From positions 1 through 64,000 of IMG/VR virus record IMGVR_UViG_3300032213_002091: a stretch of DNA of 64,000 bases; one strand, written 5' to 3'. The translations under genes and the position numbers were made by a program. The notes under the pieces are model-generated. The model made no database searches. It saw only the letters and a program-made list of their open reading frames with translations, and was not told the DNA's origin. Source of the stretch: a virus. Every line of letters begins with the position of its first letter. Positions within the stretch are counted from its first letter, which is position 1. Of this stretch, positions 25,404 through 62,667 are shown piece after piece.

Positions 25404-27542
25404 ATGCCAAACTTCAACTGTGACCCTAATGCAGACACTGCCGGATTGGTAGATTTATCCTACGGTTGGGCGAGCTGCACCTCCATAGTAAGCTTCCCAC
25501 CCAAAGATTTCAGCTCGGGGCTCAATTTCGATTACACTTGGGCTAATTGCTCTTCAATGGCGATTATCGCTGAGCTTTACCTGTACGACCAGTTGCGAGA
25601 CGCAACCGAGTTGGTACGAACGTGGGAGGGTTGTTCGAGTCTTACAAGTTTTCAGGACAATTTGTACTTGAAGGCAACTTTGTTTGATCGAACATGGAAA
25701 AATTGCAGCAGTTTGACAAGTTTTCCACCTACCACTATTGAGTCGGGTGTTACTTTCACGGAAACATGGTCCGGTTGCTCCAGCCTAACCTCTTTCCCCC
25801 TGTTGAATACGGGTCAAGGCACTAATTTCCAAGCTGCGTGGTTCGAGTGTAGTGGGTTAGTTTCTTTCCCGCTGTTAAACACAAGCCAAGGGACAAATTT
25901 CATCGGCACTTGGGCGTATTGCTCAAACCTCACTTCATTCCCCCTGTTAAACACAAGTCAAGGCACTAACTTTGCGGGCGCTTGGGCGTATTGCTCAAAC
26001 CTCACTTCATTCCCCCTGTTAAACACAAGTCAAGGCACTGACTTTGCGGTCGCTTGGGCCGACTGCAGTAGTTTAACATCCTTTCCGCTATTGGACACAA
26101 GTCAAGGCACTAATTTTTTTGCCACTTGGGCGCTGTGCGGCGGGTTGACTTCGTTCCCGCCACTAGACACAAGTAAGGGCACTAATTTCCAGTCAACTTG
26201 GGAGCAGTGCAGCGGATTAACTTCGTTCCCGTCTTTGAATTTGAGTCAAGGAACCAACTTTTCCGGTACCTGGTTAGGTTGCGTAAGTTTAGCCGACTTC
26301 CCGCCGAACATGTTTGACTCGTCACTCACCGGCAATTTCAGTCGAGCTTGGGAAGTTTGTGCGCTGACCCCCGAAAGTATCGAAAATATCTTTGTTTCCC
26401 TCGACACCAGCGGGGTAGTGAACGGTACGTGTACTGTTGCTGGAGGGACCAACGCCTGCTTCGGGGAGTGGACTGCTCTTGCCACTGCCGCTTACGATAA
26501 TCTAATTGGCAAATCCTGGACCATTGAATACAACTATTGCCCGCCTCCGGCAGAAGCACTAATCACATTAACTGCCTCGCCTACCGCAGTCGTTAATACC
26601 GGGGCAACCAACATTATTTTCAGCTTCACGCGGACCGGGTCAACAGCTAACCCTCTAACTGTTAATTTCAACGTTGGGGGGACGGCGACTCTTGGAACGG
26701 ACTACACTCAGTCTGGCGCCGCTTCTTTCTCGCCAACCAGCGGAAGCATTCTCATTCCTGCAGGGCAAACCACTGGTCAAATTACGATTGACCCAGACCC
26801 AGCCGCCTCGATCGTATCCAGCGAAACTGTTGAAATTACCTTGGTTTCGGGCTCCGGGTACACGCCGGTAACGACCAACCCGGTGGTTGGAACTATCTAC
26901 GAGGATATACTCCCTGTTGCAATACAGCAGACTATCTATATTCGAAGCATTCTTGGAACCATCGGTGGAAACCTGCTGACCGGAGAAGTTAACACCCCTG
27001 GACCCAACCCGACTCTTCCGGTGGTTTCCGTGCCGCCTGTTGTGGGTGCTGGGGGACCGGACTACCAAATTTTTGAGCTTATCAGTGATTCCATTGGGTC
27101 CTACGGTATATTCACCTTGAGTTCAAACGGGGATTTTGAGTACATTGTTGATTTAACCAACCCGATAGTCCTTAACCTCAGCCCTTACACCCCTCCTTAC
27201 TACACCGGTGTGAGTGAACCATTCCAATTCCGTGTTACAGACCTCGCCGGAAACACTAGCGAGGGTGTTGTAAACGTTTCTATACAGGCCAGTTACACAA
27301 GGGTCGCTGCTGCTTTCACTTTTGACCCTATTCCTCCCGTTCCCCCAAATCAAGGGAGGAAAATGTGGCATCTAAACGAACCCCTTGTATCCACACTATC
27401 CAACCCGAACTACTCATTCTTCGGCTTAAACTACCCGTGGACCGGGCCAGTAACAGATCCCCCCCCATACATCACAGGTTATACCGATCAGCCTGGAAAT
27501 TGGCTTATAGGTGGCCCTCCCCCTAGTGGTTTCTTTGACTGA
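25404..27542 (+). CDS. BspA-like repeat / Calx-beta / cadherin-like surface protein, 712 aa
   Basis: Residues about 20-310 hold roughly twelve units with the CSSLTSFP...TW core, most 24 residues long, typical of BspA/DUF285 leucine-rich surface repeats. Residues about 381-495 are a Calx-beta domain (VNFNVGGTATLGTDYTQSG, then ITIDPDP and SETVEITL). Residues about 515-640 resemble cadherin-like/VCBS domains (FTLSSNGDFEYIVD, FRVTDLAGNTSEG). All three are adhesion modules, so receptor binding or virion surface display is likely. Two repeat units are 70/72 identical in DNA, showing recent duplication. Confidence 0.75.
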   Translation: MPNFNCDPNADTAGLVDLSYGWASCTSIVSFPPKDFSSGLNFDYTWANCSSMAIIAELYLYDQLRDATELVRTWEGCSSLTSFQDNLYLKATLFDRTWKNCSSLTSFPPTTIESGVTFTETWSGCSSLTSFPLLNTGQGTNFQAAWFECSGLVSFPLLNTSQGTNFIGTWAYCSNLTSFPLLNTSQGTNFAGAWAYCSNLTSFPLLNTSQGTDFAVAWADCSSLTSFPLLDTSQGTNFFATWALCGGLTSFPPLDTSKGTNFQSTWEQCSGLTSFPSLNLSQGTNFSGTWLGCVSLADFPPNMFDSSLTGNFSRAWEVCALTPESIENIFVSLDTSGVVNGTCTVAGGTNACFGEWTALATAAYDNLIGKSWTIEYNYCPPPAEALITLTASPTAVVNTGATNIIFSFTRTGSTANPLTVNFNVGGTATLGTDYTQSGAASFSPTSGSILIPAGQTTGQITIDPDPAASIVSSETVEITLVSGSGYTPVTTNPVVGTIYEDILPVAIQQTIYIRSILGTIGGNLLTGEVNTPGPNPTLPVVSVPPVVGAGGPDYQIFELISDSIGSYGIFTLSSNGDFEYIVDLTNPIVLNLSPYTPPYYTGVSEPFQFRVTDLAGNTSEGVVNVSIQASYTRVAAAFTFDPIPPVPPNQGRKMWHLNEPLVSTLSNPNYSFFGLNYPWTGPVTDPPPYITGYTDQPGNWLIGGPPPSGFFD
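25909..26052 (+). repeat. Tandem 72-bp repeat pair, 70/72 identical
   Basis: Units 25909-25980 and 25981-26052 differ at two bases and each encodes one 24-residue BspA unit. Neighbouring units are more diverged, so this pair is the most recent duplication. Confidence 0.9.
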
Positions 27543-33815: not shown

Positions 33816-33838
33816 GAGTTAAACTCGCTCCAGTGAAG
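33807..33838. terminator. Inverted repeat across convergent gene ends (possible bidirectional terminator)
   Basis: Perfect 8-bp arms CTTCACTG (33807-33814) and CAGTGAAG (33831-33838), with an inner GAGT/ACTC pair, covering both stop codons. There is no long T run on either strand. Confidence 0.4.
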
Positions 33839-34508
33839 AAGCTGCCCAGTAAATAAGATCGAATTTGTGCATCTTTTTTCGTTCAGGGTGACGGTGGTGG
33901 TCAGAATGAAACTCTTCTCCCCACATCAAGGGGTACAACAGGGGGAGATTCAAAGCACTGCCCCCTTCACCCTCACCTAAGTGATTCACAATGAAGATGA
34001 GGTTCAGCATCCAGAAAGAAACCACTGGTATGAAAGGGAACACCAGAGAGGAAAGTAGGAAAAAATTAGCATTATTTCGATGCTGCAGGCAAATCTCTGG
34101 ATCTCGCAGATACCTGACGTAGGATTTCACCGGCGGGTAGAATGTTTCGTCCCAACGCTTGAAAACGGTTCTCACGAGCCCTATCCTGCGAAAATCGTGA
34201 GGGTCTAGAGTCGTATCGGTGTGCTTGTGATGTTCAACATGAACGGCGCAACTCACTGCAAGACTTCCGAATCCGCACATCGAGAAAAGATCGCACAGAA
34301 ACTTCTTGACACGGCGTGAAAATTGAAACTGATTGTGGGCCACCGCCCTATGCATAAACGCATACGAGGCGATGTTGAAGCTGAGCAGTCCCACGAACAA
34401 GGCAGCCAGCATATAGGTGTAGCCGAACACGTAGGAATACACGCCAAAGGTAATATGGCTTAGCGCGTAGAGAGTGGCGTACAGCCTGACGCTTCTTTGC
34501 AATTTCAT
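33819..34508 (-). CDS. Fatty acid desaturase (acyl-lipid / acyl-CoA desaturase family)
   Basis: 229 residues with the three histidine boxes of membrane di-iron desaturases: HRAVAH (53-58), HVEHHKHTD (90-98) and HSDHHRHPE (201-209). Hydrophobic segments lie at about 18-50, 75-90 and 150-178. These enzymes insert a double bond in membrane lipid acyl chains using O2 and electrons from ferredoxin. In a phage it would act as a host-metabolism gene altering membrane fluidity. The start at 34508 (TAAGATG coupling with the upstream gene) is preferred to an upstream start at 34547 that overlaps it. At 229 residues it is shorter than typical DesC proteins. Confidence 0.85.
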   Translation of the reverse strand: MKLQRSVRLYATLYALSHITFGVYSYVFGYTYMLAALFVGLLSFNIASYAFMHRAVAHNQFQFSRRVKKFLCDLFSMCGFGSLAVSCAVHVEHHKHTDTTLDPHDFRRIGLVRTVFKRWDETFYPPVKSYVRYLRDPEICLQHRNNANFFLLSSLVFPFIPVVSFWMLNLIFIVNHLGEGEGGSALNLPLLYPLMWGEEFHSDHHRHPERKKMHKFDLIYWAASSLERV

Positions 34509-34509
34509 C

Positions 34510-34962
34510 TTAACCTGCTGCACTAAAGTCCCTGAAGTAAAGACCAAGTTTGAGAGAGGGCTTAAACTGAAACCGTTTTAGAAGTTTGTCCGAGATTTTA
34601 CCATTCTTTCGGAGAACAGCCACCCCTTTTACGCAAGGCCGATTCAAATCACGCAAAAGTTTGAAGGTTCTTTCTAGAATTTTAGGTCTATCCCCGTGGT
34701 TCGGTAGAATAAAGACCCCTAAATAGTAGTATTTGCCCTTCAGGTACGGGGAGTATCTGGCATCCCCTGTAACCGTTCCGACAACTGTATTGGTGGGATT
34801 GTGTAAAATCGCCATTACGACTTTGTTAACCCGTACTTTCGCAAGATTGAGGCTGTAAACTTTGTTGTTCACCCATAACTCTACAGCTTGAGTTTGGACA
34901 ACCGCAGATTTCAGGCCGTCGCCGAAGAGTAAGCTGTATTCGGTAGTTTGATCTTCAGTCAC
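34510..34962 (-). CDS. Unknown protein, 150 aa, first gene of the minus-strand desaturase unit
   Basis: Starts with GTG at 34962; an ATG two bases upstream is out of frame and closed at once by TGA. Alternating strands and helices (VVMAILHNPTNTVVGTV, KYYYLGVFIL, ERTFKLLRDL) faintly recall a GNAT acyltransferase fold, but the acetyl-CoA loop is not evident. A GGGTAAAA element lies 31 nt upstream on the same strand. It is coupled to the desaturase by one base, so a shared role in lipid modification is possible. Confidence 0.6.
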   Translation of the reverse strand: MTEDQTTEYSLLFGDGLKSAVVQTQAVELWVNNKVYSLNLAKVRVNKVVMAILHNPTNTVVGTVTGDARYSPYLKGKYYYLGVFILPNHGDRPKILERTFKLLRDLNRPCVKGVAVLRKNGKISDKLLKRFQFKPSLKLGLYFRDFSAAG

Positions 34963-42177: not shown

Positions 42178-42690
42178 ATGCGTACAGACGCCATTTCTGA
42201 AAAGGCTATTGAACAAGCCTACTTGATTTATTCGGAGCGGGGACACCAGATCCTCGATTACTCCCACACACCGACAGATTACGCTCGCGGAACCGTTCTA
42301 GAACCCGAGAATACATCTGTGATCAACTCCCGTTTCGGCGAGCTTCTGCCGGAAAGCATTCGGGATGGCGGAGAGTATGACAGCCTTTCCGAGCAAGAAA
42401 GATCCCTCGATCTGCGCATCGACTCTCTTCAAAACGAGATGCGTACCTCGCGTATGCGTGGAAATTTCAAGGGCCTGCAAGCTCAGATGAAGGAAATGCA
42501 CAACCTAATCAAAGCCAAAGAGGCGCTTGACGCAAAGCTCGCCACGCTTGATCTTGGTTGCAAACAAATGGACGATTACGACCGGACGATGAATCAGGAC
42601 GATTCTTACTCCGAGCAAATTCAGTCCGTCGGAGCTCGCATTTCTGAACTCGAAGCCAAACTTGAAGAGTACCGGGAGAGCCGCCAGTGA
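42178..42690 (+). CDS. Coiled-coil protein, 170 aa
   Basis: The first 70 residues are mixed. Residues about 68-120 and 140-168 are charged heptad-like helices (LDLRIDSLQNEMRTSRM; ISELEAKLEEYRE), giving a probable coiled-coil dimer. Overlaps the kinase-like gene by ATGA, so the two are probably made together; it could be its partner or scaffold. No family is recognised. Confidence 0.6.
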   Translation: MRTDAISEKAIEQAYLIYSERGHQILDYSHTPTDYARGTVLEPENTSVINSRFGELLPESIRDGGEYDSLSEQERSLDLRIDSLQNEMRTSRMRGNFKGLQAQMKEMHNLIKAKEALDAKLATLDLGCKQMDDYDRTMNQDDSYSEQIQSVGARISELEAKLEEYRESRQ

Positions 42691-44660
42691 AAAAGAGATG
42701 CAGCCGCAGTAAAGCGTGTGGAGCAGGTTGTATCAGCAATTCAAAAGCGTGCCGGCTCAACTTCCCAACCACTGTAAACAACATTCTCAACAAAGCCTCG
42801 GATCAAGTCGGGGTTGTTGAACTCTACCGTGCTGCTGCTGCAGGCGGAAAGCGCGGCGGCGCGGCTCAGTTCGAGAAGATCAAGAAGGAACTTCGCCAAG
42901 AACTCGGCAGAAACATTCGCGCAGGCGAAGACGCACGGGAACTCAAGCGACGCCTCGTTGCGGCTGGCGTGATTCCAGCACGAGGTGCTGCAGCACCTAA
43001 GACAGAAGAAAACGCTGGGCAAATTTTCCAGAAAGCCGTCGCACAACCACAATCGGTTCCTTCCGCTCTGAAGCAAGAACTGAATCAAATCGCGGCTAGA
43101 GATCAGCAACAAAAAGATAACAAACCCGACTCCTTGTACGGAGCATGGGATACGAATCTTCTAGTTAGGTTCCGGAAAGATCTCTCGAACCAAAAATTTG
43201 AGGATAGGGAGATCATTAAGCTAGCTAAAAATAGAGTAGACCGGGAGTTAGCTCGCAGAGAGGAAAAACCGAGTGAGAAACCTCCGGTAGTTCTCGCAGC
43301 GCGGCAACTTGATAAGTCACCCGGCGCTCGAACAAGAACGGTCCCCCCGCCAAGGGGAATAACGAATGGCGAATCCGATAACTGGCAATGGACCGGCGTG
43401 ACTGACGTATTCGACGATATTTCACGCATAATGAGGGGAGTATCTCCGCGACACATTTCCATGGTTGGTGACGAAAGTGCGCGAGTCAAGAAATCACAAA
43501 TCGCGCAACTTCAATCCGTGTTGGGTCTCGGAGCTCAAACGAGGAAAGAAGTTGGCCGTGACCTGGAAGGGCTTCTCGATGAGGCAAGAAATCTGAAAGG
43601 CAGACTCATTAGTCAGCAGAAAAGGTTCAAAGGTAGTGACCAGGAGAGATTGGTTTTACTCGATCGTCTCAAGAAAGTTCGAGAAGCGATTCAAGGTCCT
43701 GCCACCAAAGCAACCGGAAACGTTCGCTACGCTCGTGAAGATGCCCGCGACCATGACGGTGATATGCTGAGCAAAGGAATTTCTCGTGAGCTTGGAAACA
43801 AGTCGTATCGCTGGGAAGATTCTTACGGCTCCGGCTCAACTCTTCTCGGAAGAGGTGCCTATGGAACTGTTCTTCGTGAACCAAACAAGGGTAACGCCAT
43901 CAAGAGAGGCGAAGTTGGCAAAATTGAGGCCGATCTGATTGATCGCCTTGGTAAAGTTGATCTTGGTCCGAAACTTCTTGCTGCACAACTTGACGGTGAT
44001 TCTCAGTATAACCCTGGAACGAAGATCGGTCGCGTGGCGATGAGCGTGGTTGCAGGAAGTCCGATCGGCTCAAAAGCGCCCGACAAAGAAATTGGCGGTG
44101 TCAAAGTCGCTGATGCGTATTGGATTGCTCGAGCAAATCTTCACAGAATGGGTATCGCTCACAACGATATGCACATTGATAACGTCCTTGTTGATCGCAA
44201 AGGTAAAGCCCGTTTCGTTGACATGGGCCTCGCTCAGGATTCACCGAAGGCAGCTTTAGCTGAGGCAATGGGTGTTTTTCTTCCACCGAGGGGATCTACG
44301 GCAGATAGAGGACGTGGTGCTGCAGGGCAAGGGGACTGGCAAGTTCGCAGATGGAAGGGAACGGCAGGCGATCTGTTGTCAATATATGAGAAGGGAACTA
44401 AAAATGGTGGTACCCCGCTGGCAACAGAGAGAGCCCGGAAAGATCTAGAGACAAAAGCCCCCATCCTTGCTAAAGTTCGAGAAAACAAAAACGAAGTGCA
44501 GTTTGCGATGCTTCGAGATGGTTTCTCCAAAGACGACATCGCCACCGTGATGGACCACGGGATTCGCTCGCCGATGGAGACTTACGAGCAGGGCGTCTGG
44601 GCTAAAATAAGCAACGAACAGGCACAAAAATACATCTCGATTCTTTACGACGGAGTTTGA
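42687..44660 (+). CDS. Protein-kinase-like protein with N-terminal Cys motif, 657 aa
   Basis: The N-terminus has C5-x5-C11-x3-C15-x6-C22, identical in spacing to the HNH-like protein at 35888. A long helical, Ala/Lys/Arg-rich middle follows (about 30-340). Residues about 385-520 resemble a protein kinase fold: glycine loop LGRGAYGTV (387-395), AIK with K406, catalytic loop HNDMHIDNVLVD (492-503, H-D-H-N like RIO/ABC1-type kinases) and VDMGLA (D512) in place of DFG. This suggests ATP-dependent phosphorylation of host or virion proteins. Activity is inferred from motifs; the Asp of the catalytic loop and the metal Asp are present. Confidence 0.7.
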   Translation: MKKRCSRSKACGAGCISNSKACRLNFPTTVNNILNKASDQVGVVELYRAAAAGGKRGGAAQFEKIKKELRQELGRNIRAGEDARELKRRLVAAGVIPARGAAAPKTEENAGQIFQKAVAQPQSVPSALKQELNQIAARDQQQKDNKPDSLYGAWDTNLLVRFRKDLSNQKFEDREIIKLAKNRVDRELARREEKPSEKPPVVLAARQLDKSPGARTRTVPPPRGITNGESDNWQWTGVTDVFDDISRIMRGVSPRHISMVGDESARVKKSQIAQLQSVLGLGAQTRKEVGRDLEGLLDEARNLKGRLISQQKRFKGSDQERLVLLDRLKKVREAIQGPATKATGNVRYAREDARDHDGDMLSKGISRELGNKSYRWEDSYGSGSTLLGRGAYGTVLREPNKGNAIKRGEVGKIEADLIDRLGKVDLGPKLLAAQLDGDSQYNPGTKIGRVAMSVVAGSPIGSKAPDKEIGGVKVADAYWIARANLHRMGIAHNDMHIDNVLVDRKGKARFVDMGLAQDSPKAALAEAMGVFLPPRGSTADRGRGAAGQGDWQVRRWKGTAGDLLSIYEKGTKNGGTPLATERARKDLETKAPILAKVRENKNEVQFAMLRDGFSKDDIATVMDHGIRSPMETYEQGVWAKISNEQAQKYISILYDGV

Positions 44661-51761: not shown

Positions 51762-53483
51762 ATGGCAGGATTTTTCGATGGAAGGGTAATTCCCGTTCCC
51801 CCAACTTTAGCGAACGCTACTCGTTACGAAATTCTTGGTTTGGCCGACACAGAGCCCAACCTTGGAGTTCCGCCAGTTGATGGCTACGGGTTAGTTAGTA
51901 CGGCGGCGGGTGTGCGAAGCTGGCAACTTGTTCCCCCGGCAGGACCGCCAGGCCCTCCGGGAGCACCGGGGCCAACAGGAGGCACAGGAGCTTCCGGGCC
52001 GCCTGGTCCCTCCGGTCCATCGGGAACGCCTGGCACTCCTGGCACACCTGGCCCAGTTGGACCTCCAGGGTCCGGCGGGGGATCAGGCGCACTTAACGCA
52101 AAATATATTGACAGTATCTCGTTTAACGGAACTCAAACCACTTTCACTCTGACATCTGCTGGAGTAAATCTTCCTATCACAGTTCTGCAGCAAGATTTAG
52201 TTCTGTTTATTGGTGGTGCAATTCAACTTGCAGGGACGGCTTTCACATGGAACGCTGGTCTGAGCCAGGTTACGTTCACGAGTGCGCCACCTGCAGGAGA
52301 TTACTTTGTAGGTTGGGTTGCGAGTCAAGTTGCCACCGGACCAACCGGACCTACAGGGCCAACTGGCGCGGGTGGACTTGAGCGTCTTGATAACATTAGC
52401 GGCGGTTTCAACGGCTCAACAGTTACTTTCACTCTGACGTACCTGGGCGGAACAACGCTGCCTTCGAACGTAACCGCAGACGATTTAGTTTTGTTTATCG
52501 GCGGCGCTGTTCAATCCACGGCAGCATTTTCGTGGAACCCCGCGCTGAGCCAAGTAACCTTCTCGACTGCCCCGCTAGCGGGAGATTATTTCGTCGGATT
52601 TGTTGGAAACACCGTTGCTATCGCGGGCGTTCCCACCGGTCTGATTTCCATGTGGTCTGGTTCAGTTGCGGCCATCCCAGGCGGTTGGCAACTGTGCGAC
52701 GGAACAAACGGAACACCGGACTTGCGGGACAGATTCATTGTCGGTGCAGGAAGCAGTTACGCCCCTGGTAACACTGGCGGTCAGAATGCGGTCACTTTAG
52801 GCATTGGCGAAATGCCTAACCACGGCCACGGATTTTCCGATCCTGGTCACTCTCACCAGTCGACCAGGAATGACTTTGCCGCAAATACCGGGGGGTATGG
52901 TTCCGGTTCTGGCGGAGGTGGACTGGGTCCAAATACAGTCTTTACAAACAACGTAGGTACTGGAATAACATTCGTTGCGGAGGGTGGGAGTGGAGCTCAC
53001 GAAAACAGACCTCCTTACTACGCCCTTGCGTACATTATGTGCATAAGCGGCAGCAGCAGCGGTGGAGGTTCAGTTACCGGAACCGTTATTTGGTCGTCAG
53101 CCTCTACAGCGCCTATTGGCTACGTTGCGTGTAACGGAGCGGCTGTCTCACGAACCACCTATAGTAATTTGTTCGCTGTTATCGGAACCACTTACGGCAG
53201 TGGGGACGGAAGCACAACATTCAATCTTCCGGACTTGAGAGGCGAATTCATTCGAGGTTGGGACGCCGGTCGTGGAGTTGACTCAGGCCGAGTTTTTGGT
53301 AGTTCTCAGCTGGATGACTTTGCGAGTCACGATCACCCGCTCTTCAACCAAATATCTGGACCGGGAACTTCTGTCATTAGCGGACCCTCCGGTAGTAATA
53401 CAATTAACACGGTAACCGGCAGTACCGGTGGAACTGAGACTCGTCCTCGCAACGTTGCACTTCTCCCCTGCATCAAGTTCTGA
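51762..53483 (+). CDS. Collagen-like tail fibre with two tail-collar domains, 573 aa
   Basis: Residues about 58-107 are Gly-X-Y repeats with many Pro. Two similar beta modules follow (each ending in SQVTF...[10 protein letters not shown]-type sequence) separated by a short [10 protein letters not shown] linker. Two tail-collar domains follow: [19 protein letters not shown]...[10 protein letters not shown] with HGH/HSH metal-ligand histidines, and [19 protein letters not shown]...[13 protein letters not shown] with a HDH. Short-tail-fibre-like receptor binding is likely. The next gene is a fibre assembly chaperone. Confidence 0.85.
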
Positions 53484-53491
53484 TAATAACC

Positions 53492-53935
53492 ATGAAAATC
53501 TATCACTATCACCCAGTCTACAAATACTTCTTGGAGGAGGGAATCGCAGATTCCTCCCCTCTGGACCCTCCAGGCGTATGGCTGATTCCCGCTCACGCAA
53601 CTGAAGAAGAACCGCCCAGCTTTTCTTCGGGCCGCATTCCCGTTTTTCAGGAGGATTCTTGGAAAGTTGTGAAAGACAAAAGGGGGGTTTATTACCGCAC
53701 CTCGGATCCAACGCAACGTCTCGAAAACTTTGATCCGTCCGAAGCTCCGAGGGGCTACACTAAAAAAGTTCCACCCGAAGTTCCACCCGGAAAAGAATTA
53801 ACTTGGGATGACGGGTGGGTTCTCGTTGACGCGGAGATCAAACCTCTCGTCGAAACCACTTTGAGCCCACACGAGAAGCTGGAAAAACTGGGCCTTACTC
53901 CCGACGACCTCAAGGCAATCCTCGGCCTTTCCTGA
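53492..53935 (+). CDS. Tail fibre assembly chaperone (Caudo_TAP-like)
   Basis: 147 residues with the family N-terminus: KIYHYHPVYKYFLEEGIADSS, then WLIPAHATEEEPP, a W-V-KDKRGVYY segment and a helical end (SPHEKLEKLGLTPDDLKAIL). Related proteins (Mu gpU, P2 gpG, T4 gp38-like) help fold or attach fibre tips. The position directly after the collar-domain fibre gene fits. Confidence 0.8.
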   Translation: MKIYHYHPVYKYFLEEGIADSSPLDPPGVWLIPAHATEEEPPSFSSGRIPVFQEDSWKVVKDKRGVYYRTSDPTQRLENFDPSEAPRGYTKKVPPEVPPGKELTWDDGWVLVDAEIKPLVETTLSPHEKLEKLGLTPDDLKAILGLS

Positions 53936-53961: not shown

Positions 53962-54564
53962 ATGAAAAACCCACTTATTCAGGTTGTTCCAACCCTGAGC
54001 AAAGAAGAGTTGCGCGTTGTCAATCAATTTTGCGACCGCAAAGAGAATTTACGCTTAAAGAACACTGTTTTCTCAGGTGAAAGTTTTCGAGTGGACACTT
54101 CTCTTCGCTCGAGTGAAGGATTCACTCTGGTGGAAGAAACTGCGATCACCGACTTAGTCGGGAAAGCTATAAATACTGCTCTGCTTGAATACCGAGACCG
54201 CCTCGGGGGAATCCACCCTTCGCTCGTCAGCTATACTCTCGCCCCTGGCGCTGCAGGAACTCGATCTCACCGCGAAGGCATTCAAATTCTTGAGTACGGG
54301 CCTGGTCAGGAATACAAATTCCATTACGATCAGAATTGGGACCGGGCGCAGAACACTTTTTATCGAACGATTTCTGTTGTTCTTTACCTCACCTCTGACT
54401 TTGAAGGTGGCGGAACCGAATTCATCGACGAAGTCTATAAACCGAAACCGGGCCACGCACTGATCTTCCCTTCGAGTTGGTGTTTTCCTCACCGAGGCCA
54501 AGTTGTAACATCCGGACTCAAAAGAGTCGCTGTTACATGGTACTACGTCTACCCGGCTTCGTAA
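53962..54564 (+). CDS. 2OG-Fe(II) oxygenase, prolyl-4-hydroxylase-like
   Basis: 200 residues. The double-stranded beta-helix core has iron ligands H121 and D123 (FHYDQ) and H177 (CFPHRGQ), with K187/R188 in GLKRVAVTWYY placed to bind 2-oxoglutarate. This is the P4H-type pattern H-x-D...H...K. Such enzymes hydroxylate prolines in X-P-G repeats. It is encoded between genes for collagen-like fibres (51762, 58285, 59071) whose Y-position prolines would be natural substrates; that link is an inference from context. 2OG oxygenases of unknown substrate are common in cyanophages. Confidence 0.85.
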   Translation: MKNPLIQVVPTLSKEELRVVNQFCDRKENLRLKNTVFSGESFRVDTSLRSSEGFTLVEETAITDLVGKAINTALLEYRDRLGGIHPSLVSYTLAPGAAGTRSHREGIQILEYGPGQEYKFHYDQNWDRAQNTFYRTISVVLYLTSDFEGGGTEFIDEVYKPKPGHALIFPSSWCFPHRGQVVTSGLKRVAVTWYYVYPAS

Positions 54565-54567
54565 ATG

Positions 54568-54575
54568 GGGTAAAA
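54568..54575 (+). promoter_or_regulatory. GGGTAAAA element (putative phage promoter)
   Basis: Exact copy 3 nt after the upstream stop; 68 nt before the ATG at 54644. Confidence 0.58.
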
Positions 54576-54594
54576 TTGCCTCAGTTGAACTGGA

Positions 54595-54616
54595 GAAGTT
54601 GGCTCGCCTCAACTTC
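54595..54616 (+). promoter_or_regulatory. Leader hairpin before fibre gene
   Basis: GAAGTTG (54595-54601) pairs with CAACTTC (54610-54616), extendable by one G-U pair. It lies between the promoter element and the start codon. Confidence 0.4.
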
Positions 54617-54643
54617 ACGGGCTGTTATCGCTAAAGAATCACA

Positions 54644-55759
54644 ATGGCAATTAGTAAAGTTGAACTCTTAGATGACACCGGCGTAGTAGCTGGAAGTTAC
54701 ACTACCTCCAACATCACAATCAGTTCGGACGGTAGAATCACCAGCGCCACGAACGGTTCCCCAGCCGCCACAGGTGTCACTCCCGGAACGTACACGAATC
54801 CGTCATTTACGGTTGGCGCAGATGGTAGGCTCACAGCTGCTTCAACCTTGGGGTCGATCGATCTTCCTGGCGTAAGTGCCGGGGATGGGGACATTTTGAG
54901 TGCTGGCGGCTTCGACGGCATGGTGGGATTGTACAACACTAACACCTCAGCAGCAAACAGAAATATCAACTTCAACCTGAATAACAACTCAGGTGCTAAT
55001 TCCTCTTATCTTGTCGTCGGGCGAGACGCGGGTACAGGATCTTTTCTTACGGATGTCTTGACGAATTTCCGGGCCGCCCAAGGAGCTTTCACTATAACAA
55101 ACGGAGACGGTTTTACAATTTGGGGGGATAAAGGCGATGTCTTGGTTAACGGCGGTATAGACGGAACGTGGGGCATGTTCCTTCAGTCCAATGCCGCTGA
55201 CCGAAATATGGGGTTTTATACTTATAACGATTTTGGCAATATTTTTCCTATTTTGACTTTAGGCCGGGACCCAAACACCGGACGATATTACGCGGCAGTT
55301 AATAGTGCAGCGCCGTCCGGAGGTTCTGATTTGTTCGTCAACGCTGGCAACCTCAACGTAAACGGCGTAAAGAATTTCCGAATCAATCACCCCTTGGACG
55401 AGAATAAGTACCTCGTTCACACATCGGTTGAGGCACCGCGAGCCGACCTGATTTACAGGGGGACGGTTCAGCTGGTGGCTGGAACTGCCGCAATCACGCT
55501 CGACGAGGAATACGGCTTGATTCCTGGCACTTGGGAGGAACTCTGCAGAAATCCGCAAGTTTGGGTCACAAGCGTCGATGGCTGGGAACTTTGCAAGGGT
55601 TCGGTCGTTGACGGAGTCTTAACCATTCAAGCGAAAGATCCCGCATGCGTTGAAACTGTCAGTTGGTTGGTAGTTGCCGAGCGCCAAGACGAAGTTATGT
55701 ACACCTACGGGCACGACGAAGACGGTCGCCCGCTTCTTGAGCCAGACAAAAGTATTTGA
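54644..55759 (+). CDS. Tail fibre protein, 371 aa (paralogue of the protein at 61252)
   Basis: The N-terminal module (KVELLDDTGVVAGSY, then GADGRLTAAST) is shared with the fibres at 59071 and 61252. The C-terminal about 140 residues (NFRINHPLDENKYLVHTSVE, then RADLIYRG and YGLIPGTWEELCRNPQVWVT) are shared only with 61252. The middle is variable and beta-rich. The conserved C-terminus may be a trimerisation or tip domain. Own promoter element and leader hairpin. Confidence 0.7.
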   Translation: MAISKVELLDDTGVVAGSYTTSNITISSDGRITSATNGSPAATGVTPGTYTNPSFTVGADGRLTAASTLGSIDLPGVSAGDGDILSAGGFDGMVGLYNTNTSAANRNINFNLNNNSGANSSYLVVGRDAGTGSFLTDVLTNFRAAQGAFTITNGDGFTIWGDKGDVLVNGGIDGTWGMFLQSNAADRNMGFYTYNDFGNIFPILTLGRDPNTGRYYAAVNSAAPSGGSDLFVNAGNLNVNGVKNFRINHPLDENKYLVHTSVEAPRADLIYRGTVQLVAGTAAITLDEEYGLIPGTWEELCRNPQVWVTSVDGWELCKGSVVDGVLTIQAKDPACVETVSWLVVAERQDEVMYTYGHDEDGRPLLEPDKSI

Positions 55760-55770
55760 TTGACCCGAGA

Positions 55771-55778
55771 GGGTAAAA
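55771..55778 (+). promoter_or_regulatory. GGGTAAAA element (putative phage promoter)
   Basis: Exact copy, 43 nt before the ATG at 55822. Followed by CCGTATATCAG. Confidence 0.6.
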
Positions 55779-55821
55779 CCGTATATCAGACCCACTCTTA
55801 GACCCTTGTTCTGTTCAGATT

Positions 55822-56853
55822 ATGGCCGTAACAAAACAAATTTACTCGCTGACAGTTGGCTTCAGCCAGACCGACGTCATTGATCAACTGGAGCAAGCCC
55901 TCATTGACGCGGGTTTGATGACGGGTTGGCACGACTCTTTTACGTCCGGAGCCCGCGCATACGGTGTGTTTGAGTGCGTTTACGATCCCACGAAAACGTT
56001 TGGAACCACCTACTACTTGTTCACTATTGAGCAACAGCGAATCGGTGTTTCAATCGGAACGGGTTGGGATACCGCTACGAACACCTTTACAGGGACACAG
56101 TACCTGGACTACTTTCTTCAGCCCCCGGATATTCAGGTTTATGGGAACTACGGTGCCACAGCCATCGGTCAGCCGGGTGTTGAAACGTACAGTAACACCA
56201 CTACCTTTAACATTTATCGCTACACATCCACGGTCAACAGCAATCAGAGTTGGTTCGTATTTCAGCAAGGTTTCAACATAAGTTACCCCTTCACCTTCCA
56301 CAACCCTGCGGAGACCCTTTACCCTTGGTTGGATCTGGATCTAGGCATGATTCCGGGCCTTTACGCAACTATCTGCGGTGTAAATTACAACGCAGGTGCC
56401 ACAAGTTTCTGCCTCCAGTCGAACATTCGTCGTGCCTACCCGTACGGGCAGGTCTTAACGGGCTACTCAAACTACTACGGCAATGATACTTTCAACGGTC
56501 TTAAGACTCCATCCTACACCTACTACGGCTGCGGTAAAACGAACAATGCTGCGACCTACAACTTTCCCCCAGGGGGCGCCAAAATCGTTATTCCGGTAGG
56601 GTCGCCCGACGCGAACCCCGCTTACTCTCAAAATTACGTTCCGATCTGCTCCGATCTACCTTGGACCCCGTTCTCTTCTTCTCCCTTGGCGACGGATTTC
56701 GGTGTCTACATGCATTACGCGAACAACACTCTGAACTTTGAAGATCGGTTCGTCGTTGACCCTGGCGTTGAAGAGTGGGAAATTCTGTACTGTGTGAATA
56801 ATCCTACGGTCACAACCGGTGCGAGTTCGACATTCCTGGCTCGCGTGGTCTGA
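55822..56853 (+). CDS. Unknown tail/fibre-region protein, 343 aa
   Basis: A helical N-terminus (QTDVIDQLEQALIDAGLM) leads into beta-rich, Tyr/Asn/Gly-rich sequence. It resembles uncharacterised structural proteins beside phage fibres. The next gene begins 2 nt after its stop. Probably a virion protein; no specific family. Confidence 0.6.
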   Translation: MAVTKQIYSLTVGFSQTDVIDQLEQALIDAGLMTGWHDSFTSGARAYGVFECVYDPTKTFGTTYYLFTIEQQRIGVSIGTGWDTATNTFTGTQYLDYFLQPPDIQVYGNYGATAIGQPGVETYSNTTTFNIYRYTSTVNSNQSWFVFQQGFNISYPFTFHNPAETLYPWLDLDLGMIPGLYATICGVNYNAGATSFCLQSNIRRAYPYGQVLTGYSNYYGNDTFNGLKTPSYTYYGCGKTNNAATYNFPPGGAKIVIPVGSPDANPAYSQNYVPICSDLPWTPFSSSPLATDFGVYMHYANNTLNFEDRFVVDPGVEEWEILYCVNNPTVTTGASSTFLARVV

Positions 56854-56855
56854 CG

Positions 56856-57089
56856 ATGGCCACCTTTCCGATTGGCGACGATTTTATTTACGATCTTGTC
56901 AACTCCACCTCTTTCACAGAGGTAACTGATGGTAGCCAGCCGGTTTTATCGCCAAAATTGTTAGTGATTAGTAACAACCGAATCAGCCTCGACTTATTTC
57001 CCTCGGAGGATTGCCCAACTCTGCCAAATCAGGGTCAAGTTTGGCCGCAAGGGTTATTCTTCGGGTCTTACGCTAACCGCGCAAACTAA
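56856..57089 (+). CDS. Short protein, 77 aa, truncated-looking paralogue of 57154 gene
   Basis: The first 28 residues (ATFPIGDDFIYDLVNSTSF then TEVTDGSQ) nearly match the start of the protein at 57154, and the C-terminal NQGQVWPQGLFF echoes its TTGQIWPLNNYF. It lacks the long central and LamG-like parts. It looks like a duplicated copy that lost its interior, or a minimal donor module for fibre exchange. Confidence 0.6.
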   Translation: MATFPIGDDFIYDLVNSTSFTEVTDGSQPVLSPKLLVISNNRISLDLFPSEDCPTLPNQGQVWPQGLFFGSYANRAN

Positions 57090-57153
57090 GCCCCCAGTCG
57101 TTCCGAGTTGATCTCGTTGATTACTCTAGTCTGTGTTAAATTGACGATGTAAG

Positions 57154-58242
57154 ATGGCAACTTTTCCGATTGGCGACGACTTTATCTTCAACCTTGTTAG
57201 CTCCACTTCGTTTACAGAGGTGAGTGATGGCAGCCAAGGGGAATTGTTGCCAAGGTATTGGTCTGCCCAAGGGTTACTTGATCTACTTCCGGGCTTCACG
57301 TCTTTCACGCCCATACTTAACCAGACGAGCCAAGTGTCCGTTCGCACTTGGCCCGCTCAAGGTTTACTCAACCTGCTGCCGGGGTTCACGTCTCTGACGC
57401 CCCTGGTTAATCAAACAAGTCAGGTGTCGGTTAAAACTTTCGTTGCGACGAACACACTAAACTTGAATCTGCCAAACGCACCCACTTGCAACTGGCCGAC
57501 CCTTCCAACTACGGGACAAATCTGGCCGTTAAACAATTACTTCTACGAGTACGTGCCAGCTCCCCCTGCACCCACGGACCCAATTCCAGCATTGTCCCCC
57601 GTTCTCTGGTATGACTTTGCCGATGAATCGACTGTTACCACTTCGGGAACTGCGATCACTTCGGTTACAGACAAGGGCAGCAATGGCTGGACATTATCAG
57701 TTGGCGGCACAAGCCCTCAGTATGTAACTGGCATTAATGGCAATAAGTGTTTAGATTGGGGCGTAAGTCCGTCTCATGCCAACTTCATGTACAACAGCAG
57801 CAGCACTTCTACAACAATCGGCGAAGTGTACGTTGTTGTTGATGCTAGTTTTGGTGGCACTGCAGGTAACTATGCCGGTCTTTTTACCTCATACAACAAC
57901 GCCTGGTACATGCTGGCATTCTCTTCATCTCTTGATGAGTCGGGCACAGGTTTCAATCAGCTATTTGTCAATGGTGGCACCAGCAACAGGTTCTCAGGGG
58001 GATTGTTTACCTCGCCTTCGATCGACAACCCTGCGATCATGCGTATCAACAACTCATCTGGCACCGCATTCAACACAACCGGTGGCTTTGAAATCGGCAA
58101 TGATCGCGGAAACTCCAGCCTCAATCGCGGCTGGCCTGGCTTGATTGGGGAGTACATTGTCTTTCCCTCCGTTCTAAGCCCCACCGACCGCGATTCTGTG
58201 CAGGCATGGCTTGCCTCCAAATGGGGCATCACGCTGGTTTGA
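57154..58242 (+). CDS. Fibre-region protein with LamG/concanavalin-like domain, 362 aa
   Basis: The N-terminal module duplicates that of the preceding gene. Residues about 36-95 are two 30-residue tandem units (SAQGLLDLLPGFTSF; PAQGLLNLLPGFTSL). Residues about 150-362 (PVLWYDFADESTVTTSG, then NGWTLS and a PSVLSPTDRDSVQAWLASKW end) look like a jelly-roll sugar-binding domain of the LamG type. Possible glycan receptor binding. No exact GGGTAAAA is upstream; a degenerate GTGTTAAA lies at 57133-57140. Confidence 0.65.
   Translation: MATFPIGDDFIFNLVSSTSFTEVSDGSQGELLPRYWSAQGLLDLLPGFTSFTPILNQTSQVSVRTWPAQGLLNLLPGFTSLTPLVNQTSQVSVKTFVATNTLNLNLPNAPTCNWPTLPTTGQIWPLNNYFYEYVPAPPAPTDPIPALSPVLWYDFADESTVTTSGTAITSVTDKGSNGWTLSVGGTSPQYVTGINGNKCLDWGVSPSHANFMYNSSSTSTTIGEVYVVVDASFGGTAGNYAGLFTSYNNAWYMLAFSSSLDESGTGFNQLFVNGGTSNRFSGGLFTSPSIDNPAIMRINNSSGTAFNTTGGFEIGNDRGNSSLNRGWPGLIGEYIVFPSVLSPTDRDSVQAWLASKWGITLV
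57259..57438 (+). repeat. Tandem 90-bp repeat (two units) in fibre gene
   Basis: Units 57259-57348 and 57349-57438 each encode 30 residues starting W-[SP]-AQGLL. They are clearly related but diverged at third positions, so older than the 25909 pair. Confidence 0.75.
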
Positions 58243-58248
58243 CCGCAG

Positions 58249-58256
58249 GGGTAAAA
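58249..58256 (+). promoter_or_regulatory. GGGTAAAA element (putative phage promoter)
   Basis: Exact copy, 28 nt before the ATG at 58285. Followed by CCTCCTATAAAG. Confidence 0.6.
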
Positions 58257-58284
58257 CCTCCTATAAAGGGTTTAAGTTTGTTGT

Positions 58285-59061
58285 ATGCCAACTCTAATTT
58301 TCCCGTCGCCTGCTTACAACGGACAGATCTACCCTGATCCCCCCATCGTAGGTGTAGATCAATATCAGTATAACGAGCAATTTGACACTTGGGAGTTGCT
58401 TTCAAGCGGACCTGGACCGGTTGGGCCTGTCGGGCCACCGGGACCGCCAGGACCTTCTGGCACTCCGGGTACTCCCGGAACTTCTGGTTCACCTGGACCT
58501 ACAGGTTCACCTGGACCTACAGGTTCACCTGGGCCTACAGGACCAACTGGTACTCCTGGAAATAATGGGACTCCTGGTTCACCGGGTACTCCTGGGACTC
58601 CTGGTTCACCTGGGCCTACAGGTTCGCCGGGGCCGGAAGGACCTACGGGACCTGTGGGGCCTCCCGGGGGAGGGTCAGAATATACTTTCACGGACTTTAC
58701 AACAAGCGTACTTCCTGCAGGAGGAGTGCAAGACTTCCAACTTGCGTTGGGTGGTTTATTCCACTTGGTGGCAATTTCTTCGGACTTGCCTATGTGGATT
58801 CGCGTTTACGGGGACTCAGCATCGAGAGCCGCTGACACAAGGACATCTCCGGGAGGAACTCCCCCTTTAAGCGGAACCGGTTTCTATGCCGAAGTTGTAA
58901 CGACCACGGCAGACGAGACAATCGACTTCGCACCCTTGCCAGCGGTTTATGCAGGGTTTGGCCTAACTTTCTTCAGAGTGGTAAACATGGGAGTCAGCTC
59001 TGTGGCTTTCCAGTTGCAGTTCAAAACGGTCGAAGTCGTTCCTGGCCTCACACCTGGCTGA
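58285..59061 (+). CDS. Collagen-like fibre protein, 258 aa
   Basis: A short N-terminal domain (about 1-40) is followed by about 29 Gly-X-Y triplets (42-129), many of the form G-S-P, G-T-P or G-P-T, so Pro occurs at both X and Y. A C-terminal beta domain (about 135-258) may trimerise the collagen helix. Likely a thin fibre shaft. The adjacent collagen gene at 59071 and the P4H-like gene at 53962 belong to the same array. Confidence 0.8.
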
Positions 59062-59070
59062 TAAAATCCT

Positions 59071-60507
59071 ATGGCACTCGACAAAGTTCAACTGCTGAAT
59101 AATACCGGGGTAGCAGCCGGAACATACGTTAACCCGAACCTCACCGTAACCTCTGACGGCAGAATTTCGAGTATTTCTTCGGATCCTACTCCTGGCCCTG
59201 CGGGACCACCTGGTACTCCGGGAACTAACGGGACTCCTGGTTCACCTGGGCCTACAGGTTCTCCTGGACCTACAGGGCCAACCGGTCCAACCGGGCCAAC
59301 TGGTACTCCGGGGAATGATGGGACTCCTGGTTCACCGGGGCCTACAGGTCCAACTGGTACTCCTGGAACTGACGGGACTCCTGGTTCCCCTGGGCCTACG
59401 GGTCCAACCGGTGATCCTGGCACCCCTGGAACTGACGGGACTCCTGGTTCCCCTGGGCCTACAGGACCAACCGGTGATCCTGGCACCCCTGGAACTGACG
59501 GGACTCCTGGTTCCCCTGGGCCTACAGGACCAACCGGTCCAACTGGGCCTACAGGACCCACAGGTCCCACACCGTTCATCCCCTCCGGATCCCCGGCAAA
59601 TAAAATTGTCTCCCCGTTAGAAGTTTTAACAGGAACTTACTTCTGTAATGATTTCACCCTTAACAGTGGCACAAGCTGCTACATTCGGGACACGGTTTAC
59701 ATCATGGCCCGTGGCAACGTAATTATCGACGGCCTTATATCAGGCGACGGATCCACCGCGAATGGTCCTCCCCCGATGAATTATGCCTATTTAGGGAGCC
59801 AATGGATTTCAACAGGGGTTGGCCAAGGCGGTCAGTTTGGAAACTACGGAAACTACAACGGTGCAGGTATTGCCGGAGGGCGGACGTCCATAGGCGGTTT
59901 GGCCTCTGACGCGATTGTGAATTTACGCGGTTCAGATGGTGCCTCAGGGTACATGGCTAATTCGGACACGGTAACCGTTTCTGGTCATTACTCTTCGGGG
60001 GGTCTTGCCGGAAAGACCCTCATCATTCGAGCGTTAGGATCCATTCTAATTGGTCCCAGTGCTGTAATTAACTGCAATGGGGCCTGGGGACAAAATTGGA
60101 ACCTTCTATTCCCCTTCCCCGCGACGCTTTTGTACTCAGGTGCCGGTGGTGGATCAGGGGGCGCAATTATTTTAGACGCTGACGGGGATTGCATCAATAG
60201 TGGGAGTCTTGCCGCCACCGGTGGCAACGGAAGCGATGGTCTAAATGGTACTTATGGTGGTGGTGGTGGTGGTGGTGGTATTATTATCGTTCAGTCGCGT
60301 TATGGGACCTCCTCGGTAGGGACTGCGATTGTAAGCGGGGGACTTGCGGGCAACAGTTCAGGTACTACCTTGGGTTCAGGGGGCGGAGGAGGTTGCGGTG
60401 GGTTTGGCGGAAATGGGGGATTCGGGTACGTACCTGGTGATCCCACTCCTGTTGCTCCGTATAACGGCCTAGCAGGAGTTGTTCGACAATGGGGTACTCC
60501 TTGGTAA
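59071..60507 (+). CDS. Collagen-like fibre protein with Gly-rich C-terminal region, 478 aa
   Basis: The N-terminal module ([16 protein letters not shown], then TSDGRISS) is shared with fibres at 54644 and 61252. About 42 Gly-X-Y triplets span residues 42-168. The C-terminal part (about 170-478) is beta-rich and very Gly-rich, with GGGGGGG and [10 protein letters not shown] runs, resembling beta-helix or polyglycine-type fibre tips. Its stop overlaps the next ATG (TAATG). Confidence 0.8.
59410..59535 (+). repeat. Perfect 63-bp tandem duplication in collagen region
   Basis: Units 59410-59472 and 59473-59535 are identical in all 63 bases and encode 21 residues (seven Gly-X-Y triplets). A partial third copy lies just upstream. 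Confidence 0.92.
60256..60276 (+). repeat. (GGT)7 microsatellite in fibre gene
   Basis: Seven perfect GGT triplets encode Gly7. In-frame slippage would change loop length without frameshift. Confidence 0.85.
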
Positions 60508-61251: not shown

Positions 61252-62667
61252 ATGACACTCGACAAAGTTCAACTCCTGGACGACAGCGGGGTAACCCCTG
61301 GAAGTTACACCCTTACCAATCTTACGGTGGGTGCGGATGGAAGACTCACAGCCGCTTCTAGTGGCTCTCTGAATGCTACAGGTGTGACTCCTGGAAGTTA
61401 CAATCTTTCCAGCATTACGGTGGGTGCGGATGGGAGACTCACAGCCGCTTCCACTCCCACAAGTATTAACTTGCCTTCTATCGCAAACCCCGGTGACGGG
61501 GATATCACTAGTGCGGGTGGGTCCGACGGAATATTCACTATATCCAACTCGTCTAACGACACACCAATGTTGCTAGGGGCCACAACAGGTGGTGTTATGG
61601 GTCCTAAAGTTGTATTAGATCCTCGTCCGAGCAACTGTTACACGTGGCCTTTCGTTCTGCCGGGGTCATCCCCTAATGGTTATTTCTATGTCAAAGGTAA
61701 CTTACTACTTGGAACTCAGTTTGATGACTCGGGGGAACTATCCAGCACAGGTGGCAGTGACGGCAATTTCGGCATATTTAATGGAGCGGAAACCCTAGGC
61801 GACCCTATCAACACTACCTCAAGGTCTATTTCTTTCTGGACAAAAACTTACTCAAATAATAACACGGAGTGCAGATTTACTATTAACCAGTACGGTTCTA
61901 CATCTCTTCAAAGTTTGGGGTACTTAGGTCAACTTATTGGTGTAGGTGGTGGTGCTTTAGGGTCCAGCGATATGGTCGTTGATGGTGGCACTGATGGGCA
62001 GTTCGTTATTTTCAATAACAGCGGCGCTGCTGCCAGGATGATATCCCTTGCCATTAACAACGAATCTTTAAATGGGCCCGACGCATTGCTCCGGTGCTAC
62101 AGGGATGGTGGTACTGGAGCACGCATTGTAGATTGCCCCCTCCCTGGAACTACCTTTGATGTGAACGGTACTAAACTGTTCCGAATCGAACATCCTATCG
62201 ATAGCTCTAAAGACCTCGTTCATGTTTCAATCGAAGGGCCAAGAGCCGATCTAATTTACCGCGGAAACGTAAAACTCATAAACGGTGGGGCGACCGTCGA
62301 TTTAGACGAAGAGTATGGGCTGATTCCGGGAACTTGGAAGTCGCTTTGCAGAAACCCCCAGGTTTGGATTACAAGTGTAGATGGTTGGGAGCCCTGCAAA
62401 GGCTCCGTTTCTGACCAAATCCTTACAATATACTCCAAAGACTCAAATTCTAAGGAAACAGTTAGCTGGTTGGTGGTGGCGGAACGGAAGGATTCGGCTA
62501 TGTATGGCCCCTCTAGTGATGAAGAGGGTAGACCGATTCTTGAACCAAACAGAAGGCCCCCAAACAACCCTCACCCCTACCCGGATTTTCCAAATTCACC
62601 AGTTCAACAGACTCAGTCAAACTCTAGTGAGAGTTCTTCAGAAGACGACGCAGCAAAACTTCCATAA
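61252..62667 (+). CDS. Tail fibre protein, 471 aa (paralogue of the protein at 54644)
   Basis: The N-terminal module is present twice in tandem (TGVTPGSYTLTNLTVGADG; TGVTPGSYNLSSITVGADG). The variable middle differs from 54644. The C-terminal block (LFRIEHPIDSSKDLVHVSIE, then YGLIPGTWKSLCRNPQVW) is shared with it. A Pro/Ser-rich tail follows. The last 55 nt overlap the antisense DUF3223-like gene. End of the fibre array. Confidence 0.7.
   Translation: MTLDKVQLLDDSGVTPGSYTLTNLTVGADGRLTAASSGSLNATGVTPGSYNLSSITVGADGRLTAASTPTSINLPSIANPGDGDITSAGGSDGIFTISNSSNDTPMLLGATTGGVMGPKVVLDPRPSNCYTWPFVLPGSSPNGYFYVKGNLLLGTQFDDSGELSSTGGSDGNFGIFNGAETLGDPINTTSRSISFWTKTYSNNNTECRFTINQYGSTSLQSLGYLGQLIGVGGGALGSSDMVVDGGTDGQFVIFNNSGAAARMISLAINNESLNGPDALLRCYRDGGTGARIVDCPLPGTTFDVNGTKLFRIEHPIDSSKDLVHVSIEGPRADLIYRGNVKLINGGATVDLDEEYGLIPGTWKSLCRNPQVWITSVDGWEPCKGSVSDQILTIYSKDSNSKETVSWLVVAERKDSAMYGPSSDEEGRPILEPNRRPPNNPHPYPDFPNSPVQQTQSNSSESSSEDDAAKLP

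Follow-up and report, generated by a model that had tools for sequence, protein, structure and literature searches.

A P4H-type oxygenase gene in the tail-fibre region of a likely cyanophage, with collagen-like fibres as candidate substrates

The first 64 kb of the 89-kb IMG/VR virus record IMGVR_UViG_3300032213_002091 (64,000 nucleotides, hereafter the window) encode a 2-oxoglutarate (2OG)-Fe(II) oxygenase of the prolyl 4-hydroxylase (P4H) type in the vicinity of fibres with collagen-like Gly-X-Y repeats. We propose, with a probability of about 0.5, that this enzyme is a peptidyl (prolyl) hydroxylase dedicated to the phage's own collagen-like fibres, which it would modify mainly at X-Pro-Gly sites, i.e., at proline in the Y position of the repeat (Y-Pro). 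Modification of some fibre residue by the oxygenase is probable; that the residue modified in this phage is mainly Y-Pro has roughly even odds. The proposal comes from comparisons of sequences, predicted structures and gene neighbourhoods, starting with the oxygenase itself.

53962-54564, + strand: P4H-type 2OG-Fe(II) oxygenase, 200 residues (PF13640, 5e-16; phrog_61 '2OG-Fe(II) oxygenase', 4.5e-32).

A first-pass annotation of the window had identified the product as a P4H-type oxygenase on the basis of H121, D123, H177 and K187, and this identification was confirmed: the three Fe ligands and the 2OG-binding Lys are invariant in an alignment of 50 homologues. R49, E105, Y118, R135 and W193 are likewise invariant, and S51 is nearly so. 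P4Hs have an R-x-S motif on the N-terminal side of the core and a peptide groove lined by Glu, Tyr and Arg residues. R49-x-S51 is a motif of this kind, also N-terminal to the core, and the IR[ST]S motif together with the core-strand Glu, Tyr and Arg aligns with the P4Hs of Bacillus anthracis and Chlamydomonas. The residue that binds 2OG is a Lys placed 10 residues past the distal His in collagen-type P4Hs, but an Arg in the PHD and PKHD types; K187 is at H+10, the same spacing as in the alignment with the B. anthracis enzyme.

When a profile of the family was compared with solved structures, the top eight matches in the PDB were all P4Hs. The B. anthracis enzyme came first (3.4e-15), then those of Chlamydomonas (8e-10) and PBCV-1 (4e-9), with human P4H alpha-2 (6e-6) and prolyl 3-hydroxylase 1 (P3H1; 1.5e-4) lower, and a PKHD-type structure last (1.6e-3). 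An AlphaFold model of the oxygenase (pLDDT 91.3) gave fold matches of the double-stranded beta-helix type. Prolyl hydroxylases predominated among the Foldseek matches listed, led by a Pseudomonas putida P4H complexed with EF-Tu and an algal P4H plus (Ser-Pro)5 peptide, and with the viral collagen hydroxylase vCPH slightly lower. Membership of the oxygenase in the P4H branch is thus supported, and the sequence settles only in part whether it is of the collagen type or of the type that hydroxylates EF-Tu or HIF (hypoxia-inducible factor).

The candidate substrates, and the other genes that surround the oxygenase, are the following.

51762-53483, + strand: tail fibre that combines a Gly-X-Y segment (PF01391) with a Phage Tail Collar domain (PF07484); its gene is the second one upstream of the oxygenase.
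51942-52094, + strand: Gly-X-Y segment of that fibre, 17 triplets, 8 with Y-Pro and 8 with proline at X (X-Pro).
53492-53935, + strand: tail-fibre assembly protein (chaperone; phrog_35518, 2e-20; phrog_105, 1.8e-16), between the first collagen-like fibre and the oxygenase.
54644-55759, + strand: 371-residue protein adjoining the oxygenase, with weak likeness to phage proteins of unknown function.
58285-59061, + strand: collagen-like fibre (PF01391), Gly-X-Y at 58414-58674, 29 triplets, 15 with Y-Pro.
59071-60507, + strand: collagen-like fibre (PF01391), Gly-X-Y at 59194-59571, 42 triplets, 19 with Y-Pro.

The oxygenase had been described as lying among these three fibre genes. All three do match PF01391, but only the first is near the oxygenase, with the chaperone gene in between; four open reading frames of non-collagen proteins (starting at 54644, 55822, 56856 and 57154) part it from the other two. 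The 51762-53483 fibre is therefore the nearest candidate substrate. The product of 54644-55759 is probably a virion protein, and its C-terminal half is similar, by eye, to 61252-62667. Taken together, the three fibres have Y-Pro in 42 of 88 triplets (48%: GTP 19, GSP 12, GPP 8, GDP 2 and GAP 1), so that an X-Pro-Gly candidate substrate is present in the same phage as the oxygenase. The many Y-Pro residues seen at first were thus recovered, with the qualification that X-Pro is on a par (41 of 88). The fibres are of the same kind as the known collagen-like tail fibres of phages (PF01391 with the tail collar PF07484), in most of which, however, Y is Thr, Gln or Ala, and the Y-Pro share is well above the median of 1.4% found in contigs sampled by their GPT repeats.

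The host of the phage is likely to be a cyanobacterium, because its large terminase resembles that of Synechococcus phage S-CBWM1 (58% identity) and because both its polymerase (family A, with a mitochondrial-type exonuclease) and its portal, of the Mu type, fit a tailed phage. Homologues of the oxygenase were found in 80 viral contigs and in the cyanophage isolates P-SSM2, S-CAM7 and ACG-2014f. The cyanophage enzymes (phrog_61; 'PiuC' in P-SSM2, 'putative prolyl 4-hydroxylase' in S-CAM7) belong to the same family, are 40-50% identical and occupy the same place amid tail-fibre genes. In P-SSM2 the enzyme is PSSM2_031 and the Gly-X-Y fibre is PSSM2_028. PF01391 was rejected as the sole measure of collagen: it matched nothing in G021-G024, although GPPGPPG-type segments occur in the fibres close to the oxygenase in L017, L052 and L062. 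Since PF01391 misses short GPP runs, Gly-X-Y repeats (at least 4 triplets) were counted directly. Among the 51 viral homologue loci with at least 4 kb of upstream sequence, 47 had such repeats on the same strand within 6 kb upstream of the oxygenase gene, and 3 of the 4 loci scored without them had short GPP runs in a neighbouring fibre. For comparison, 1 of 22 loci anchored on the large terminase (TerL) had any Gly-X-Y repeat within 6 kb. The first-pass annotation had taken frequent close homologues in phages devoid of collagen-like repeats as evidence against its proposal; such homologues proved to be few, and the expected co-occurrence across phages was found.

The window lineage shares with the unrelated cyanophage family Kyanoviridae a gene order of Gly-X-Y fibre, chaperone for tail-fibre assembly, P4H and large fibre; the chaperones of Kyanoviridae are of other families (PF16778, phrog_4912). 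Thus, in two cyanophage groups that are unrelated to each other, the oxygenase has kept its position within the fibre module. Only 3 relatives turned up in 84,980 cellular genomes, and all of them appear to lie on viral contigs, as judged by their Gly-X-Y fibres and their metagenomic or single-cell origin. In S-CAM7 and ACG-2014f, genes for group-1 glycosyltransferases separate that of the collagen-like fibre from that of the P4H (L010:12024-13993; L014:12914-14002). A second PF13640 oxygenase is found beside or near the P4H in fibre loci of marine and freshwater phages (L017:10601-11137, L062:9037-9600, L074:5836-6423, L079:1396-2043 and L086:9677-10264).

The position of the gene bears on a metabolic role. 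The function of cyanophage 2OG-Fe(II) oxygenases has been a question since 2010 or earlier, and the published guesses, unlike the one made here, are metabolic: nitrogen signalling or DNA repair was proposed for these enzymes in general (PMC3037559). The oxygenase might accordingly be an auxiliary gene that lowers 2-oxoglutarate and so acts on NtcA and nitrogen signalling, or one that serves DNA repair or, following the 'piuC' annotation in P-SSM2, iron uptake. A 2OG sink, however, has no reason to be positioned amid fibre and fibre-chaperone genes, and in an ACG-2014f record the remaining 2OG genes have much lower scores against the oxygenase-family profile and are mostly located elsewhere. 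A PiuC/PKHD identity was itself rejected, as the match to NCBIfam PRK05467 is far under threshold (24 bits against a cut-off of 143), the 2OG position has Lys and not Arg, and the PKHD structure is the weakest of the profile matches. We consider a metabolic role highly improbable.

To ask how Y-Pro is distributed, Gly-X-Y triplets were counted, the enzymes were grouped into 29 clusters and a Y-Pro share of at least 15% was used as the threshold. This share was reached beside the oxygenase in 14 of the 29 clusters, in none of 28 loci anchored on gp5 (the baseplate gene) and free of P4H within the locus, and in none of 68 contigs sampled by GPT repeats. Because selection for GPTGPT disfavours Y-Pro and so skews these last controls, a second sample was drawn by X-Pro runs, blind to Y. 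When only fibres with at least 20% X-Pro were considered, 13 of 17 enzyme clusters were rich in Y-Pro, versus about 9 of 57 of the Y-agnostic contigs (Fisher p=6e-6, uncorrected for shared ancestry). Within the window lineage, Y-Pro amounts to 19-51% in 8 P4H-bearing contigs, 3 of them near-identical in the enzyme, and to no more than 4% in the P4H-less relatives S-CBWM1 (6/158), G011 (1/32) and G016 (1/26), the last two apparently close relatives of each other. These counts support the conclusion that Y-Pro is found much more often in proline-rich fibres beside the oxygenase than in other fibres of phages.

Such tracking of fibre composition would be unexpected if the oxygenase, to alter host translation, hydroxylated a host protein such as EF-Tu, a substrate of the Pseudomonas enzyme PPHD and of the B. 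anthracis P4H, with its location among fibre genes being incidental. The top fold match, P. putida PPHD (4iw3), is an EF-Tu prolyl hydroxylase of similar size, and the title of 5v7y, an entry for the B. anthracis P4H, presents it as EF-Tu-modifying; both speak for a host target. PPHD is nevertheless absent from the sequence-profile matches, K187 is placed as in the B. anthracis and collagen P4Hs and not as the Arg of PHD types, and the position beside fibre and fibre-chaperone genes is conserved in two phage families. We therefore view a host target as quite unlikely.

Several observations weigh against our proposal that the oxygenase modifies the fibres mainly at Y-Pro. The enzyme profile aligns only in part, and the TM-scores of 0.55-0.68 (by query) cannot tell collagen P4Hs from PHD/HIF or EF-Tu hydroxylases. 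In the sample drawn by X-Pro runs, 10 of 60 contigs reach 15% Y-Pro, a weaker contrast than 0 of 68 (the run and triplet thresholds differ slightly), and the Y-Pro statistics as a whole are only partly corrected for shared ancestry. Y-Pro is not uniform beside the enzyme, being under 15% in 15 of the 29 clusters and near zero in several. With almost no Pro, Y is occupied by Gln or Thr at L026-L028, L032, L049, L051, L053, L054, L059, L070, L083 and L085, and by Lys at L037, L038, L041 and L043. Moreover, closely related enzymes are found next to unlike fibres, as with L060 (Y-Pro 53%) and L084 (Y-Lys 61%), or L018 (Y-Pro 52%) and L029 (Y-Gln 56%). Finally, a PF13640 gene is no commoner where virus contigs contain four GXP triplets in a row (5/41) than in contigs with GPT repeats (5/50), a third sample had the gene in 5 of 37, and many viruses have Y-Pro runs but lack it.

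Even the fibres of one phage may differ, since in L008 Y-Pro makes up 50-59% of the upstream fibre and 0-8% of the downstream one. The idea that the Y residue follows the enzyme tree was discarded, as it takes 14 state changes and closely related enzymes stand beside different fibres. Because fibres with Gln, Thr or Lys at Y adjoin the enzyme and Y-Pro runs occur without PF13640, Y-Pro is neither necessary for retention of the enzyme nor sufficient to predict it. The enzyme-fibre link of the first-pass annotation thus stands as far as the P4H branch, the conserved place in the fibre module and the Y-Pro enrichment are concerned, but not as a general Y-Pro rule, about half of the clusters having little or none.

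The oxygenase may instead be a fibre-modifying hydroxylase with another or a broader specificity, for X-Pro, for Lys or for a residue outside the repeats (collar, tip), perhaps followed by glycosylation; in that case the proline-rich repeats of the window fibres would contain Y-Pro by coincidence of composition. This reading is favoured by the enzyme clusters that adjoin Gly-X-Lys fibres (L037/38/41/43, L084 and L011) or Pro-less Gln/Thr fibres, as it is by the glycosyltransferases of S-CAM7 and ACG-2014f, the second PF13640 enzyme at five loci and the finding that the B. anthracis P4H modifies both X and Y Pro in (PPG)n (PMC8968730). Conversely, the closest solved relatives are prolyl and not lysyl hydroxylases, and the enrichment in Y-Pro is specific to the sites of Pro-rich fibres. 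On balance we regard this alternative as rather unlikely. The Lys at Y of the P4H-bearing loci L037, L038, L041, L043, L084 and L011 (GXK repeats up to 61%) is the context of lysyl hydroxylases.

Under the hypothesis of a hydroxylase acting mainly on Y-Pro, a small cytoplasmic P4H-type oxygenase would form part of the cyanophage tail-fibre assembly module. If catalytically active, it would hydroxylate newly made fibre chains late in infection, mainly at X-Pro-Gly sites (GTP, GSP, GPP), before or during their trimerisation by the assembly chaperone. The resulting 4-hydroxyproline at Y may stabilise the triple helix, to the presumed benefit of the phage, or may be a handle for further modification. 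Possibly, the glycosyltransferase and P4H loci of S-CAM7 and ACG-2014f represent a hydroxylation-plus-glycosylation cassette. More generally, we tentatively envisage, as something short of an even chance, a self-contained cyanophage cassette for fibre maturation, made up of collagen-like fibre, chaperone and P4H and sometimes extended by another 2OG oxygenase and by one or two glycosyltransferases; it would hydroxylate and, in some phages, glycosylate the fibres.

Parts of such a system are already known, namely the PBCV-1 P4H, collagen processing in mimivirus (PMC9546862), the activity of the B. anthracis P4H on collagen-like peptides (PMC8968730) and cyanophage genes annotated as P4H. The B. 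anthracis enzyme (3itq, 5hv0; BclA-type collagen-like proteins), the best profile relative, resembles that of the window in its ligands, H-to-K spacing, IR[ST]S motif and small bacterial type, and is reported to hydroxylate X-Pro-Gly model peptides (PMC8968730). It differs in being cellular, in having been studied in vitro on synthetic peptides and in lying outside any virion fibre module, and identity is about 23% over the structural alignment. PBCV-1 vCPH (5c5t) is likewise a virus-encoded P4H and matches well in structure (by target, TM reaches 0.74), but it comes from a eukaryotic algal virus with another gene context. Mimivirus also combines collagen-like proteins with hydroxylase and glycosyltransferase enzymes (L230 and others) in one virus; there, however, the biochemistry shown is that of a lysyl hydroxylase/glucosyltransferase, and the virus is a giant virus and no tailed phage (PMC9546862). 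Viral P4H and collagen tail fibres are mentioned together in a Baltic Sea study, which terms the use cryptic (PMC9301287), and a paper of 2022 that deals with a phage carrying 24 2OG-Fe(II) oxygenase genes states that the viral functions of such genes had not been specifically investigated until then (PMC9602691). No earlier description of the fibre-chaperone-P4H synteny or of the Y-Pro enrichment was found in the open-licence papers searched.

If the proposal is correct, abundant phages of marine and fresh waters would have post-translationally matured tail fibres, with a bearing on fibre stability and host adsorption, and the pair would offer a compact prokaryotic enzyme and substrate for the production of hydroxylated collagen. 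The cassette, should it exist, would be a bacteriophage counterpart of collagen processing in animals and giant viruses, and would provide a main function for one subfamily of the 2OG oxygenases that abound in cyanophages.

Some further features were noted. One viral contig, L331 (record G079), has 614 Gly-X-Y triplets with 61% Y-Pro and no X-Pro, and its record also has a PF13640 gene. tRNA genes were looked for across the 64-kb window, and none was found. The structural region of the window includes, at 25404-27542, CSSLTSFP-type repeats like those of leucine-rich surface proteins, with no Pfam match. A fatty-acid desaturase gene (PF00487, 5e-10) lies at 33819-34547 on the - strand, between the terminase and PhoH-like genes. 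Finally, 42687-44660 encodes a protein-kinase-like domain that scores under the Pfam cut-off; in S-CBWM1, a RIO-like kinase gene precedes the baseplate gene.

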